The position numbers and the translations under genes were made by a program. Below the pieces are notes generated by a model that was given only the letters and a program-made list of their open reading frames with translations, was not told the DNA's origin and made no database searches. 64,000 bases of DNA from Streptomyces qinzhouensis (GTDB lineage: Bacteria; Actinomycetota; Actinomycetes; Streptomycetales; Streptomycetaceae): the NCBI RefSeq assembly GCF_007856155.1, contig NZ_CP042266.1:4030001-4094000 (forward strand), read 5' to 3'. This document shows positions 53,922-60,820 of this stretch, piece by piece. The stretch's first letter is position 1; each line of letters opens with the position of its first letter.

Positions 53922-55103
53922 ATGAATACGAAGGACTTCGTCGAGAAGGACTACTACAAGGTTCTCGGCGTCCCCAAGGACGCCACCGAGGCCGAGATCA
54001 AGAAGGCGTACCGGAAGCTCGCCCGCGAGTTCCACCCGGACGCCAACAAGGGTGACACCAAGGCCGAGGAGCGCTTCAAGGAGATCTCCGAGGCCAATGA
54101 CATCCTCGGCGACCCCAAGCGGCGCAAGGAGTACGACGAGGCCCGCGCCCTCTTCGGCAACGGCGGCTTCCGGGCCGGGCCGGGCGGTGGCAGCTTCAAC
54201 TTCGACCTGGGCGACCTCTTCGGAGGCGCCCAGGGCGGGGGCCCCCAGCCCGGTGGGGCCGGTGGCTTCGGCGGCGGTCTGGGCGATGTGTTCGGCGGGC
54301 TGTTCAACCGCGGCGCGGGCGCCGGGACCCGGGTTCAGCCGCGGCGCGGCCAGGACATCGAGTCCGAGGTGACGCTCAGCTTCACCGAGGCCGTCGACGG
54401 GGCCACGGTCCCGCTGCGGATGTCCAGCTCCGCGCCGTGCAAGGCCTGTTCCGGCACCGGCGACAAGAACGGCAACCCCCGGGTCTGCCCGACCTGTGTC
54501 GGCACCGGTCAGGTCTCCCGCGGCGGCAGCGGCTCCTTCTCGCTGACCGACCCCTGTGTGGACTGCAAGGGCCGTGGGCTGATCGCCCAGGACCCGTGCG
54601 AGGTCTGCAAGGGCAGCGGGCGGGCCCGTTCGTCGCGCACCATGCAGGTGCGGATTCCGCCGGGCGTCTCCGACGGCCAGCGGATCCGGCTGCGGGGCAA
54701 GGGCGCCCCGGGCGAGCGCGGCGGCCAGGCCGGTGATCTCTATGTCGTCGTCCATGTCGGTGAGCACCCCGTGTTCGGCCGCCGGGGCGACAATCTGACC
54801 GTCACCGTGCCCGTGACGTATACGGAGGCCGTGCTGGGCGGCGAGATCAAGGTGCCCGTGCTCGGCGGTCCGCCGGTGACCCTGAAGCTGCCCCAGGGCA
54901 CGCCCAACGGTCGCACGATGCGGGCCCGCGGCAAGGGAGCGGTCCGCAAGGACGGCACCCGCGGCGATCTGCTGGTCACCGTCGAGGTGGCGGTCCCGAG
55001 GGATCTGAGCGGCAAGGCGAAGGAAGCGCTGGAGGCCTATCGCGAGGCCACCGCGGACGAGGACCCGAGGGCCGAGCTCTTCGAGGCCGCGAAGGGAGCA
55101 TGA
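53922..55103 (+). CDS. dnaJ: co-chaperone DnaJ
   Basis: 393 residues. The J domain contains HPD at residues 38-40, followed by a Gly/Phe-rich stretch (GGSFNFDLGDLFGG). Four CxxCxGxG zinc modules (CKACSGTG, CPTCVGTG, CVDCKGRG, CEVCKGSG) occupy about 165-235, and the C-terminal peptide-binding domain ends the protein. It stimulates DnaK ATPase and delivers clients. Its stop overlaps hspR as ATGA. Confidence 0.97.
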   Translation: MNTKDFVEKDYYKVLGVPKDATEAEIKKAYRKLAREFHPDANKGDTKAEERFKEISEANDILGDPKRRKEYDEARALFGNGGFRAGPGGGSFNFDLGDLFGGAQGGGPQPGGAGGFGGGLGDVFGGLFNRGAGAGTRVQPRRGQDIESEVTLSFTEAVDGATVPLRMSSSAPCKACSGTGDKNGNPRVCPTCVGTGQVSRGGSGSFSLTDPCVDCKGRGLIAQDPCEVCKGSGRARSSRTMQVRIPPGVSDGQRIRLRGKGAPGERGGQAGDLYVVVHVGEHPVFGRRGDNLTVTVPVTYTEAVLGGEIKVPVLGGPPVTLKLPQGTPNGRTMRARGKGAVRKDGTRGDLLVTVEVAVPRDLSGKAKEALEAYREATADEDPRAELFEAAKGA

Positions 55104-55555
55104 GGACGATGGACGGACGGCGCCGCAACCCCTACGAACTGACCGACGAATCACCGGTGTACGTGATCTCGGTGGCTGCCCAGCTTTCCGGGCTGCACCC
55201 GCAGACGCTGCGGCAGTACGACCGGCTGGGTCTGGTCTCACCCGACCGTACGGCGGGCCGGGGGCGGCGCTACTCCGCCCGGGACATCGAACTGCTCCGT
55301 ACGGTGCAGCAGCTGTCCCAGGACGAGGGCATCAACCTCGCCGGCATCAAGCGCATCATCGAGCTGGAGAACCAGGTCGCGGCGCTCCAGTCCCGGGTGG
55401 CCGAGCTGACGGCCGCGGTCGAGGGCGCGGCGGCGACGATGCGGCAGCGCGAATCGCAGGTCCACGCCTCGTACCGGCGCGATCTGGTGCCGTATCAGGA
55501 TGTGCAGCAGGCGAGCGCGCTGGTGGTGTGGCGGCCGAAGCGGACCGGCGAATAG
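55100..55555 (+). CDS. hspR: HspR heat-shock repressor (MerR family)
   Basis: 151 residues, start overlapping the dnaJ stop; ATG 55109 is possible. The MerR helix-turn-helix VYVISVAAQLSGLHPQTLRQ and YDRLGLVSPDRTAGRGRRYS (about 20-60) and a coiled-coil (ELENQVAALQSRVAELTAAV) mark it. It represses dnaK operon and clpB through HAIR sites; three such sites are seen in this window (51217, 51269, 58115). Confidence 0.96.
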   Translation: MRTMDGRRRNPYELTDESPVYVISVAAQLSGLHPQTLRQYDRLGLVSPDRTAGRGRRYSARDIELLRTVQQLSQDEGINLAGIKRIIELENQVAALQSRVAELTAAVEGAAATMRQRESQVHASYRRDLVPYQDVQQASALVVWRPKRTGE

Positions 55556-55686: not shown

Positions 55687-56685
55687 TCAGCCCGCCGTGG
55701 TCGGTGTGCCGTGTTCCAGGATCCCCGACTGGGCGATCAGATAGCCCAGTTGGGTACGGCTGCCGCTGCCCAGCGACGAGCCCAGTTTGGCGATATGGGC
55801 CCGGCAGGTCCGGACGTTCATCCCCAGGCGGCGGGCGATCGCCTCGTCGACGTGGCCCTCCACCAGCAGTTTGGCGATGGACCGCTGGACGCCCGTCACC
55901 CCGTTGAGATCGGGGCCGTACGAGATCGGCTCGTCCCACGGCAGTCCGTGCAGCCAGAACTGCTCGAAGACGCCGACCAGATAGTCCACGATCCCCTTGT
56001 GCCGCAGCTCCAGAGCGAACAGCCGGTCGCTGCTGGCGGGGATGAAGGCCACCTTCCGGTCCACGATGATCAGCCGGTCGATGATTTCTTCGAGGGTGCG
56101 CACCTCCACTCCGGACGGTCCGACCTTCTCCATATAGGAGAGCGTGGCCGGGTGGTGGCGGGCGGTGTGCTGGTAGAGGGTCCGCATCCGCACCCCTCGT
56201 TCGATCAGCGGCTGCACCCGGTGCAGCGCCTTCTCCAGGGAGTGCGGCTGGCGTCCGCTGCCCGGCTGGACTGTGAGAAGCTCCTCCGTGCAGTCGGCGG
56301 TGACCTGGTCCAGACTGGCGTTGATGCGGTTGAGGCCTTCGAGGACGGTGATGCCGTCGGGCACGGGCGAGCCCTGGGCACTGATGGACATAAAAGGTTC
56401 GAGAGCGTCGGTGAGGGCGACGGCCCGCCGGCGGCGGTCCTGGATCTCCCTCTCGATGGGGTGGATCAGTTGCGCCAGTGCCGTGGTGGGAGCGACCGGT
56501 CGGAGCCACTGGGCGTCATACGGGTCCGGATCGAGCAGTGCGAGGTCGAACAGGCAGGGCGCGGTCTCCGCCTCAAGACGGGACAGCCGACCGCTCCGCA
56601 GCGCGGTGATGTAAAGACTCTTTCCCGCCTCGCACAACTTGCCGTCTGAGTGAGGGTGTCCGAGTTCGCCCCCATGAGACGTCAT
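55687..56685 (-). CDS. LuxR-type HTH regulator next to GEPSWE peptide gene
   Basis: 332 residues from ATG 56685 (GGGGGT upstream). The N-terminal half is unassigned; residues 150-260 resemble the PLD/TrmB-like sensor domain (ERGVRMRTLYQHTARHHPAT, VRTLEEIIDRLIIVDRKVAF, FIPASSDRLFALELRHKGIV). The C-terminus is the LuxR helix-turn-helix (QRSIAKLLVEGHVDEAIARR then LGMNVRTCRAHIAKLGSSLG, about 265-305). It is divergent from a secreted peptide gene, with the palindrome ATGTTCCTG-N5-CAGGAACAT just upstream, so autoregulation and control of the peptide are likely. The signal could be the peptide itself. Confidence 0.85.
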   Translation of the reverse strand: MTSHGGELGHPHSDGKLCEAGKSLYITALRSGRLSRLEAETAPCLFDLALLDPDPYDAQWLRPVAPTTALAQLIHPIEREIQDRRRRAVALTDALEPFMSISAQGSPVPDGITVLEGLNRINASLDQVTADCTEELLTVQPGSGRQPHSLEKALHRVQPLIERGVRMRTLYQHTARHHPATLSYMEKVGPSGVEVRTLEEIIDRLIIVDRKVAFIPASSDRLFALELRHKGIVDYLVGVFEQFWLHGLPWDEPISYGPDLNGVTGVQRSIAKLLVEGHVDEAIARRLGMNVRTCRAHIAKLGSSLGSGSRTQLGYLIAQSGILEHGTPTTAG

Positions 56686-56697
56686 ATGTACCCCCTC

Positions 56698-56720
56698 ATG
56701 TTCCTGCATTACAGGAACAT
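56698..56720. promoter_or_regulatory. ATGTTCCTG-N5-CAGGAACAT palindrome
   Basis: Perfect 9-bp inverted repeat (56698-56706 and 56712-56720) with a 5-base spacer, 13 bp upstream of the luxR start and about 90 bp upstream of the peptide start. A candidate operator for the LuxR protein. Confidence 0.65.
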
Positions 56721-56811
56721 GATGCCTGCCGTCGCTGGTGCAAGCGTTCGGAGTGAGACATCGTCTTATGCGCGGGGGAGGAGGAATGATCAAATGAGGT
56801 GGAGATCACCC

Positions 56812-57048
56812 ATGTCTAGGACGCTACGTGCGCTTTGTGCTCTTGCCTTGGCGGGCGCCGCGCTGGGCGCCGCCGGTTTCACCACCGGCGAACCCTCTTG
56901 GGAGCGCGTCCCCGCAGCCGTCGCGGCGGCGGACCAGGGTGAGCCCTCGTGGGAGGTCGGTGGACCGTTCGCGGCGGCCACTGCCGGCGACGGCGAGCCT
57001 TCCTGGGAACTCACCACCGCACCTGCTCCCAAAGGTGCGGACGCATGA
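56812..57048 (+). CDS. secreted peptide with three GEPSWE motifs
   Basis: 78 residues from ATG 56812 with GGAG seven bases upstream; ATG 56794 (AGGAGG) would add six residues. An N-terminal hydrophobic signal (MSRTLRALCALALAGAALGA) is followed by three exact GEPSWE hexamers at 26-31, 43-48 and 61-66, spaced 17 and 18 residues, each in an Ala/Gly/Pro linker (ERVPAAVAAADQ, VGGPFAAATAGD). DNA of the three copies differs at wobble positions, so the repeat is under protein-level selection. No family known to me. Multi-core RiPP-like precursor or signalling peptide are candidate roles. Coupled to the next gene by ATGA. Confidence 0.75.
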   Translation: MSRTLRALCALALAGAALGAAGFTTGEPSWERVPAAVAAADQGEPSWEVGGPFAAATAGDGEPSWELTTAPAPKGADA

Positions 57049-57365
57049 CCGTGCCACCGGATGACCGCTCCTTCCGGCGCGAGATGGCCACGGCCTACCG
57101 CTCCGGGTGGCATTTCATCGACCTTGTGACGGCCATTCCCCACCGAGGCGACTCGTTGATGGTCACCCTGTTCGGCGAGCCGATCGTCGTGGCCCGTGAG
57201 GAGGACGAGGACGTCCGGGCGTACCGGTGCCTCCGTCGTCCGCGGGGCGCTCCGCAGCCCGTCCGTTGCGCCATCCGATACGGAATGATTTTTGTGAACC
57301 TCGACCAGCGCGACCACCGGCTGGCCGATCCGGACACCACCCGAGCCACCCCCCGCAGTGCCTGA
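57045..57365 (+). CDS. short Rieske-like protein lacking Fe-S ligands
   Basis: 106 residues, start overlapping the peptide stop. TAYRSGWHFIDLVTAIPHRG, SLMVTLFGEPIVVAREE and RYGMIFVNLDQ resemble the N-terminal Rieske domain of ring-hydroxylating oxygenases and its flanking beta-strands. The two ligand boxes CxH and CxxH are replaced by CLRRPRG and RCAIRYG, and the loop is shortened, so no cluster should bind. It may be a pseudo-Rieske partner of the peptide or its LuxR regulator. Function unknown. Confidence 0.6.
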   Translation: MTVPPDDRSFRREMATAYRSGWHFIDLVTAIPHRGDSLMVTLFGEPIVVAREEDEDVRAYRCLRRPRGAPQPVRCAIRYGMIFVNLDQRDHRLADPDTTRATPRSA

Positions 57366-57407
57366 GCGATTCCCCCGTCGTTTTAAATCGCTCCGGCACT
57401 TCCCCCA

Positions 57408-57452
57408 CACAGCGGCGCCATCGCGGACCTGAAACGCGATGGCGCCGCTGTG
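57408..57452 (+). terminator. 18-bp hairpin after the peptide operon
   Basis: CACAGCGGCGCCATCGCG (57408-57425) pairs perfectly with CGCGATGGCGCCGCTGTG (57435-57452), loop of 9 bases. It is 43 bp past the Rieske-like stop and 67 bp from the PPOX gene end (convergent), so it may serve both. Confidence 0.75.
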
Positions 57453-57518
57453 CGTCCGCGAACGGGCCGACGCGCCCCGCCGCCCCGGGGTGGTACGGCT
57501 CCGGGGGCGTACGGCCGC

Positions 57519-57932
57519 TCAGGCGCGCCCCAGGGCCCGTTCCACGGCGATCTCCACGACCACCCGGTCCGGATTGGGCTTCGGGACGCGGCCGTACCGC
57601 TCCGCGTAGCGCCGGACGGCGTCCTCGACGACCTCCGGTTCCGTGCGCACCCGCGCCCGGCCCTCCAGGGTCGCCCAGCGCCCGCGGTCCATCTGGCAGA
57701 CGGCGACCCGGGCGCCCCGCCCGTCCGCCGCGCCCGCGAGGACGTGCGCGACCTTGCGGCTGGACTTGTTGGTGATGACCCGGGCCAGGCCGGCCTCCGG
57801 GTCGAAGGTCACCCCCACCGGGACCACGTGCGGGGAGCCGTCCGGCCGGAGGGTCGTCAGGGTGCACAGCTGGTGCTCGCGCCAGAACTCCAGATAGCCG
57901 GGGGTCAGCTGGTTCAGATCGGTGATCGCCAT
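57519..57932 (-). CDS. PPOX-class F420/FMN-dependent oxidoreductase
   Basis: 137 residues from ATG 57932. The split beta-barrel fold of pyridoxamine-phosphate-oxidase-like proteins is clear: LCTLTTLRPDGSPHVVPVGV (about 22-41), KSSRKVAHVLAG and QMDRGRWATLEGRARV. Actinobacterial members mostly use F420 or heme/flavin; which one cannot be told here. It is an orphan between the peptide module and clpB. Confidence 0.85.
   Translation of the reverse strand: MAITDLNQLTPGYLEFWREHQLCTLTTLRPDGSPHVVPVGVTFDPEAGLARVITNKSSRKVAHVLAGAADGRGARVAVCQMDRGRWATLEGRARVRTEPEVVEDAVRRYAERYGRVPKPNPDRVVVEIAVERALGRA

Positions 57933-58228: not shown

Positions 58229-60820
<2,592 letters not shown>

Follow-up and report, generated by a model that had tools for sequence, protein, structure and literature searches.

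Does the locus between hspR and clpB of Streptomyces qinzhouensis, in which a gene for a signal-bearing peptide with repeated GEPSWE hexamers diverges from a LuxR-type regulator gene, yield a modified peptide or a signal? The initial annotation left room for both, with the peptide cut into repeated cores or acting as a surface signal, the regulator sensing it and a Rieske-like protein helping. We analysed the locus within a window of 64,000 nucleotides (G000:C1:4030001-4094000; genome of 8.15 Mb) and propose that it encodes the precursor and receptor of a species-typed (pherotype) peptide pheromone of Streptomyces, a reading that we hold to be likely. At the level of sequence, our comparisons demonstrate constraint on the core, its species typing, a residue-level match with the sensor, the palindrome and an RNA structure. 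The coordinates and hexamers first described are correct (Table 1), and the palindrome is perfect as described, with arms of 10 bp instead of 9 bp.

Table 1. Features of the locus and its neighbours, in window coordinates.
Feature	Position	Strand	Remarks
hspR	55100..55555	+	neighbour, outside the system
LuxR-like (GerE-type HTH) regulator, 332 aa	55687..56685	-	candidate receptor; TrmB/PLD-like sensor; HTH about residues 261-320; co-varying residues 136, 153, 145 (also 149, 217, 218)
Palindrome CATGTTCCTG-N5-CAGGAACATG	56697..56721	.	in divergent promoter; putative operator
Putative pheromone precursor, 78 aa	56812..57048	+	signal-like N-terminus; 3x GEPSWE, spacers unlike
Rieske-like protein, 106 aa	57045..57365	+	Arg at both histidine-ligand positions
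Conserved structured RNA	57345..57454	+	spans last Rieske-like codons and beyond; CCACCCCCC box, hairpin 57357-57400 with C-rich loop, UUCCCCC linker, terminator-like hairpin 57409-57451
clpB	58229..60820	+	neighbour; its start serves as species-tree proxy

The interval between hspR and clpB holds the regulator gene, the divergent peptide gene, the Rieske-like gene, which overlaps the precursor gene by ATGA, and a PPOX gene; no transporter or protease gene lies in the locus. We gathered 242 loci, for nearly all of which the Rieske-like gene or the peptide was the point of entry; 240 also contain the regulator and 223 are distinct, and one block (L034-L113) is biased toward the query because it takes just the top 80 out of at least 533 matches. 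The order and strands of regulator, (peptide), Rieske-like gene and clpB are conserved in 235 of the 240 two-gene loci, the fetched stretches of the remaining five showing no clpB. The regulator is encoded opposite to the Rieske-like gene in 240/240 loci and clpB on the Rieske-like strand in all 235 where it was reached; hspR is seen in just 59 of 240, since many fetched stretches stop short of it.

Of 392 Streptomyces genomes, 327 match the Rieske-like profile; at least two of these (G048 and G337, with partial model matches within ORFs of 400-414 codons) probably represent ordinary oxygenases, and no such gene was found in the other 65. Twenty of these 65 were searched for the regulator: 19 have more distant regulators only (best E 3e-73) and one has none. 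All 23 matches in a 121-genome draw of the family fall within one genus out of 17, and the named homologues among the matches listed for all three proteins are from Streptomyces. In two genomes a second copy of the Rieske-like gene lies within 0.1-0.2 Mb of a contig end (L241:2213-2536, L242:2195-2518), and the 4.8-kb stretch around it shows neither a regulator nor a DxxW peptide. The locus of S. coelicolor itself was sought and not found; the nearest is that of G215, whose Rieske-like protein is 98% identical to that of S. violaceoruber and whose core is DSVWS.

The peptide carries 1-18 copies of [D/E/N]xxW after a signal-like part in 221 of the 223 distinct loci; the two loci without a scripted match are L143, with two DPSW copies in a missed ORF, and L078, with TEWP. 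At least two tetrads are present in 188 peptides, and in 173 of these all are identical. Across the loci we count 41 dominant tetrads (EPSW 30, DSGW 25, EPTW 19, DSTW 16, DSSW 11, DTGW 10 and others; EARW, in L243, derives from a doubtful ORF) and 122 distinct pentapeptides. The largest number of copies, 18 of DTGW, was observed in the precursor of L165, whose regulator was matched only in part. Because copies within a peptide agree closely from position -3 to +1 of Trp (identity 0.99, 0.98, 0.96, 1.00 and 0.80) and little just outside (0.33 at -4, 0.30 at +2), the core is kept and the spacers drift; between peptides the same five positions give 0.55, 0.23, 0.25, 1.00 and 0.12, and in all these figures Trp and, partly, -3 are imposed by the [DEN]xxW search pattern. 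Conservation of the hexamer as first envisaged does not hold between species, where copy number and letters vary; what does hold is uniformity within most peptides and movement together with the regulator.

Fold matches of the regulator are to TrmBL2, TrmB and PLD (the sensor) and to a LuxR-type (GerE) HTH that is weak in the Pfam scan and clear by fold. TPR rows, which a peptide-binding receptor of the RRNPP kind would give, are absent from these matches, an absence that is in itself no proof, and the Pfam scan (E up to 1) lists no autoinducer-binding domain. For co-variation, 196 of the 223 distinct loci were used; the 27 left out lacked a motif, had a regulator length outside 270-420, an incomplete clpB part or a short Rieske-like ORF, or belonged to the outgroup L243-L246. 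Motif and regulator distances are correlated (r 0.64; 0.63 once clpB and Rieske-like DNA are partialled out; permutation p 0.001 with Rieske-like protein distances), and 40-residue windows of the regulator give 0.32-0.63 in the sensor, peaking at 121-160, and 0.08 in the HTH. The corresponding values for Rieske-like DNA are 0.25, or 0.19 given clpB, and windows of the Rieske-like protein give partial correlations on clpB of 0.04-0.15. With 38 motif states, the number of steps that the motif requires is 65 for the tree of the regulator, 107 for that of clpB and 115 for that of the Rieske-like gene, against shuffled means of 156-157, a comparison that favours the regulator because the trees of clpB (450 bases) and the Rieske-like gene are noisier. 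The motif tracks the TrmB/PLD-like sensor domain; it does not track the HTH, and hardly tracks the Rieske-like gene and clpB.

This agreement resolves to single residues. Position 2 of the peptide pairs with regulator residue 136 as Pro with Leu (51/51), Ser with Met (73/73), Thr with Val (27/28), Ile with Val (20/20), Leu with Val (11/14) and Val with Val (8/10), a rule satisfied in 190 of the 196 loci, the same loci from which it was derived. On the regulator tree, 21 of the 26 changes of residue 136 fall on branches on which position 2 changes (expected 3.0) and 14 of the 22 of residue 153 on those of position 3 (expected 3.2), and position 5 shows co-change with residue 149 in 19/46 (expected 8.9) and residue 218 in 14/31 (expected 6.2). 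Arg145 is missing, as charge would suggest, in 13/13 loci whose position 3 is Arg, Lys or His, and in 20/183 others. Only four changes occur at position 1 (D/E/N), which is not enough for assigning a regulator residue. Independent pairs on the clpB tree agree for Ser/Met136 in 12/12 (p 0.0005) and for Thr/Val136 in 6.1 of 8 (median p 0.03), with p 0.5-1 for four other columns in the case of Ser; when columns 136 and 153 are left out of the regulator tree, the counts are 9/9 and 8/9. Pro/Leu136 has just two supported pairs on either tree (2/2), Ile/Val136 pairs are not significant, residue 153 is weaker than residue 136 (6.3/14 and 6.6/11 on the clpB tree, median p 0.125), and residue 145 gives 3/7.

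Could the cassette simply be inherited or exchanged as a block, with the motif hitch-hiking alongside the regulator? The genes adjoin, and the motif agrees better with the regulator than with clpB, as block exchange would give. Against linkage, the overlapping Rieske-like gene and the regulator HTH hardly track the motif, and co-change of single residues recurs. The rule also extends above chance to other regulator-peptide pairs: among held-out pairs (divergent outgroup, paralogues, other genera), a set that excludes ten further peptides with position -3 not D/E/N or position 2 outside the rule, 11 of 16 fit (expected 4.8, p 0.0005; misses L251, L253, L283, L298 (DLIW) and L308), and 8 of 13 fit without the three outgroup loci (p 0.026). 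L243-L246 and many core loci contain more same-family LuxR-like regulators close to the receptor gene. We considered these as extra receptors and rejected them, as in the core loci their residue 136 fits the peptide in just about 32 of 116 cases, an approximate count because the primary regulator ORF was sometimes mis-chosen. This low fit also speaks against linkage, which we regard as an extremely improbable account. Residue-level co-variation strongly supports the earlier suggestion that the LuxR-like regulator senses the peptide as a signal.

Co-variation requires binding and does not need secretion, so the peptide might stay in the producing cell as a cytosolic or membrane-held co-regulator of the regulator. 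Against this stand the signal-sequence-like N-termini of core precursors and of the peptides beside related regulators, from which we infer that the precursor is secreted, and the 44 of 221 precursors in which the core plus one residue forms the exact C-terminus (one residue past the last Trp), resembling a processing product. We consider an unexported peptide unlikely.

The initial annotation also raised a multi-core RiPP, in which the regulator would sense a modified peptide product and the Rieske-like protein would be a tailoring partner. In its favour are the multiple spaced cores and the presence of a Rieske-related ORF just downstream. However, the ligand motifs CxH ... CxxH read CLR ... 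CAIR here, with Arg replacing both His ligands; the Cys of the family is not invariant either, and the protein lacks a catalytic domain. Its Rieske [2Fe-2S] Pfam match lies below the cut-off, and the top Foldseek rows for its model (pLDDT 76) are Rieske oxygenases at E 1e-3. It also hardly follows the core, as the correlations above indicate. We met no dedicated RiPP modifying enzyme between regulator and clpB in the window, where PPOX is the sole other enzyme; enzymes encoded elsewhere may nevertheless modify the peptide. These observations argue against the RiPP idea, which we judge very unlikely, somewhat more so than a peptide that is never exported.

Returning to the pheromone reading, we propose that the precursor is exported via its signal sequence and processed to short linear peptides containing the core [D/E/N]xxWx (EPSWE or GEPSWE in the present case), which would re-enter the cell, for example through an oligopeptide importer. 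The peptide would then bind the TrmB/PLD-like domain of the regulator, the best-supported of these steps given the co-variation, with residue 136 matched to position 2, residues 153 and 145 to position 3, and perhaps 149 and 218 to position 5. Since the HTH hardly differs between species (89-92% identical), the probable site of action of the regulator is the palindrome lying between its own gene and the precursor gene, where it may control both transcripts. The Rieske-like protein, devoid of cluster ligands, may be a partner or an output of the system.

TCCTG...CAGGA is the top inverted repeat of the divergent region in at least 115 of 223 loci, and the inverted-repeat score of the operator region across loci is not above that of shuffled DNA. 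The perfect palindrome occurs once in the genome, and with no second perfect 21-base site we rejected the operator as a regulon marker. An N6 form has three sites elsewhere in the genome. Palindrome-like sites with one mismatch lie near both contig ends (G000:C1:3428-3448 and 8143037-8143057; L324, L325).

A conserved RNA closes the operon. ATPRSA terminates 211 of 223 Rieske-like ORFs, with nearly invariant codons (GCC, ACC, CCC and stop TGA 211/211; last GCC 208, CGC 207, AGT 182). The RNA folds with z -7.2 in the window, RNAalifold finds double-sided changes in 12 of 30 pairs (45 sequences), and 214 of 216 loci contain three stretches of five or more consecutive C. A search with a covariance model recovered the RNA in 30 of 38 Streptomyces genomes, whereas 112 others gave a single match, at E 0.005; the model also yields weak matches on the opposite strand at these positions and an additional weak one in G218. 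An Rfam scan of 56500-57700 gave no family at gathering score, returning three sub-threshold miRNA rows only. We found nothing on the locus in the accessible parts of two published sRNA lists (PMC3765725, PMC8388888), and the S. coelicolor coordinates in the accessible part of a third (PMC2422843) cannot be placed against it. In 142 of 216 loci the CCACCCCCC box is complementary to the regulator leader over at least 9 bases, and in 82 the RNA is complementary to the precursor leader over at least 9 bases, against averages of 6.0 for clpB leaders and 5.7 for shuffled leaders. The C-rich RNA could thereby exert feedback by base-pairing where translation of regulator and precursor begins, a lead only, because the regulator-leader match in the window itself is just 6 bases and G-rich ribosome-binding sites favour such matches.

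Relatives of the regulator reach beyond this locus, with profile matches in 37 of 38 genomes searched, including all 16 genera among them. Of 67 stretches fetched from elsewhere than the core locus, four pairs of which overlap, 22 contain near the regulator a signal-like ORF that has Trp among its three C-terminal residues, compared with 21 of 400 pseudo-loci drawn from the window, a weak control because one 54-kb stretch holding two Trp-ended ORFs only was re-used. Chance may account for some of these 22 (L252, L311); clear C-termini include DSAWD, DTGWD, DFVWA, GNYWG, ANYWE and DPNWG. By the same test the other 45 stretches lack such a peptide, several having an internal DxxW. L264, L275, L276, L294 and L298 hold related regulators and signal-like peptides ending in GNIWA, ANYWE (twice), GNYWG, NYGWGD and DDLIW. 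Such pairing of regulator and peptide could be characteristic of the family.

Firmicutes are known to use peptide pheromones that act on cytosolic receptors; their RRNPP precursors are secreted, carry a C-terminal core and are encoded next to their receptors. As in our proposal, an imported short peptide is sensed by a cytosolic regulator (Rap-Phr, PlcR-PapR, NprR, ComR-XIP), according to the accessible part of PMC13220807. Here, co-variation matches a short precursor core to its own receptor, and sequence features suggest secretion; unlike RRNPP, the regulator combines a TrmB/PLD-like sensor with a LuxR-type HTH, precursors hold up to 18 core copies and the host is Streptomyces. LuxR-type AHL receptors and LuxR solos have the GerE/LuxR-type HTH in common with it, but the autoinducer-binding domain is absent in the Pfam scan here and the proposed ligand is a peptide. 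Archaeal TrmB is sugar-binding by its entry titles, whereas the ligand proposed here is a pentapeptide, and the HTH of TrmB/TrmBL2 is of another kind. In agr, ComX and fungal alpha-factor, a strain- or species-typed signal is likewise matched to its receptor, alpha-factor with many copies per precursor, and receptors and maturation enzymes differ. gamma-Butyrolactones are small lactones, not peptides, with TetR-type receptors. They too act as cell-cell signals in Streptomyces, as the accessible part of PMC13220807 describes.

We found no earlier report of the locus, or of a Streptomyces peptide pheromone with a cytosolic receptor, in our searches of the open-access literature, preprints being outside the search. 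Going further, we lean somewhat towards a large, unreported Streptomycetaceae pheromone class in which LuxR-like TrmB/PLD-sensor regulators would read Trp-peptides from secreted precursors through a residue code, the clpB-near locus being the most conserved and bearing an RNA feedback arm that resembles, in outline, RNAIII of agr.

To our knowledge, the gene for the signal imported by BldK is still not known. That signal has a mass of 655 Da, and we rejected DSVWS (MH+ 593.26) as a candidate for it. The oligopeptide permease BldK imports a signal that starts aerial growth, as the accessible part of PMC5650626 reports. SCO3665 (327 aa) and SCO3666 of S. coelicolor are LuxR-family genes in the accessible part of PMC3282765, their numbering adjacent to that of clpB (SCO3661; PMC2687793), and an insertion in SCO3664, termed a regulator, raised actinorhodin more than 50-fold according to the accessible part of PMC6585502. 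The assignment of SCO3664-SCO3666 to this locus is a lead only.

Collectively, the evidence points to a peptide signalling system, so far unreported, in the principal antibiotic producers among bacteria. The locus supplies candidate peptides, a candidate receptor, exchangeable single residues and tractable strains, and the system could account for species-specific control of development or antibiotic production.
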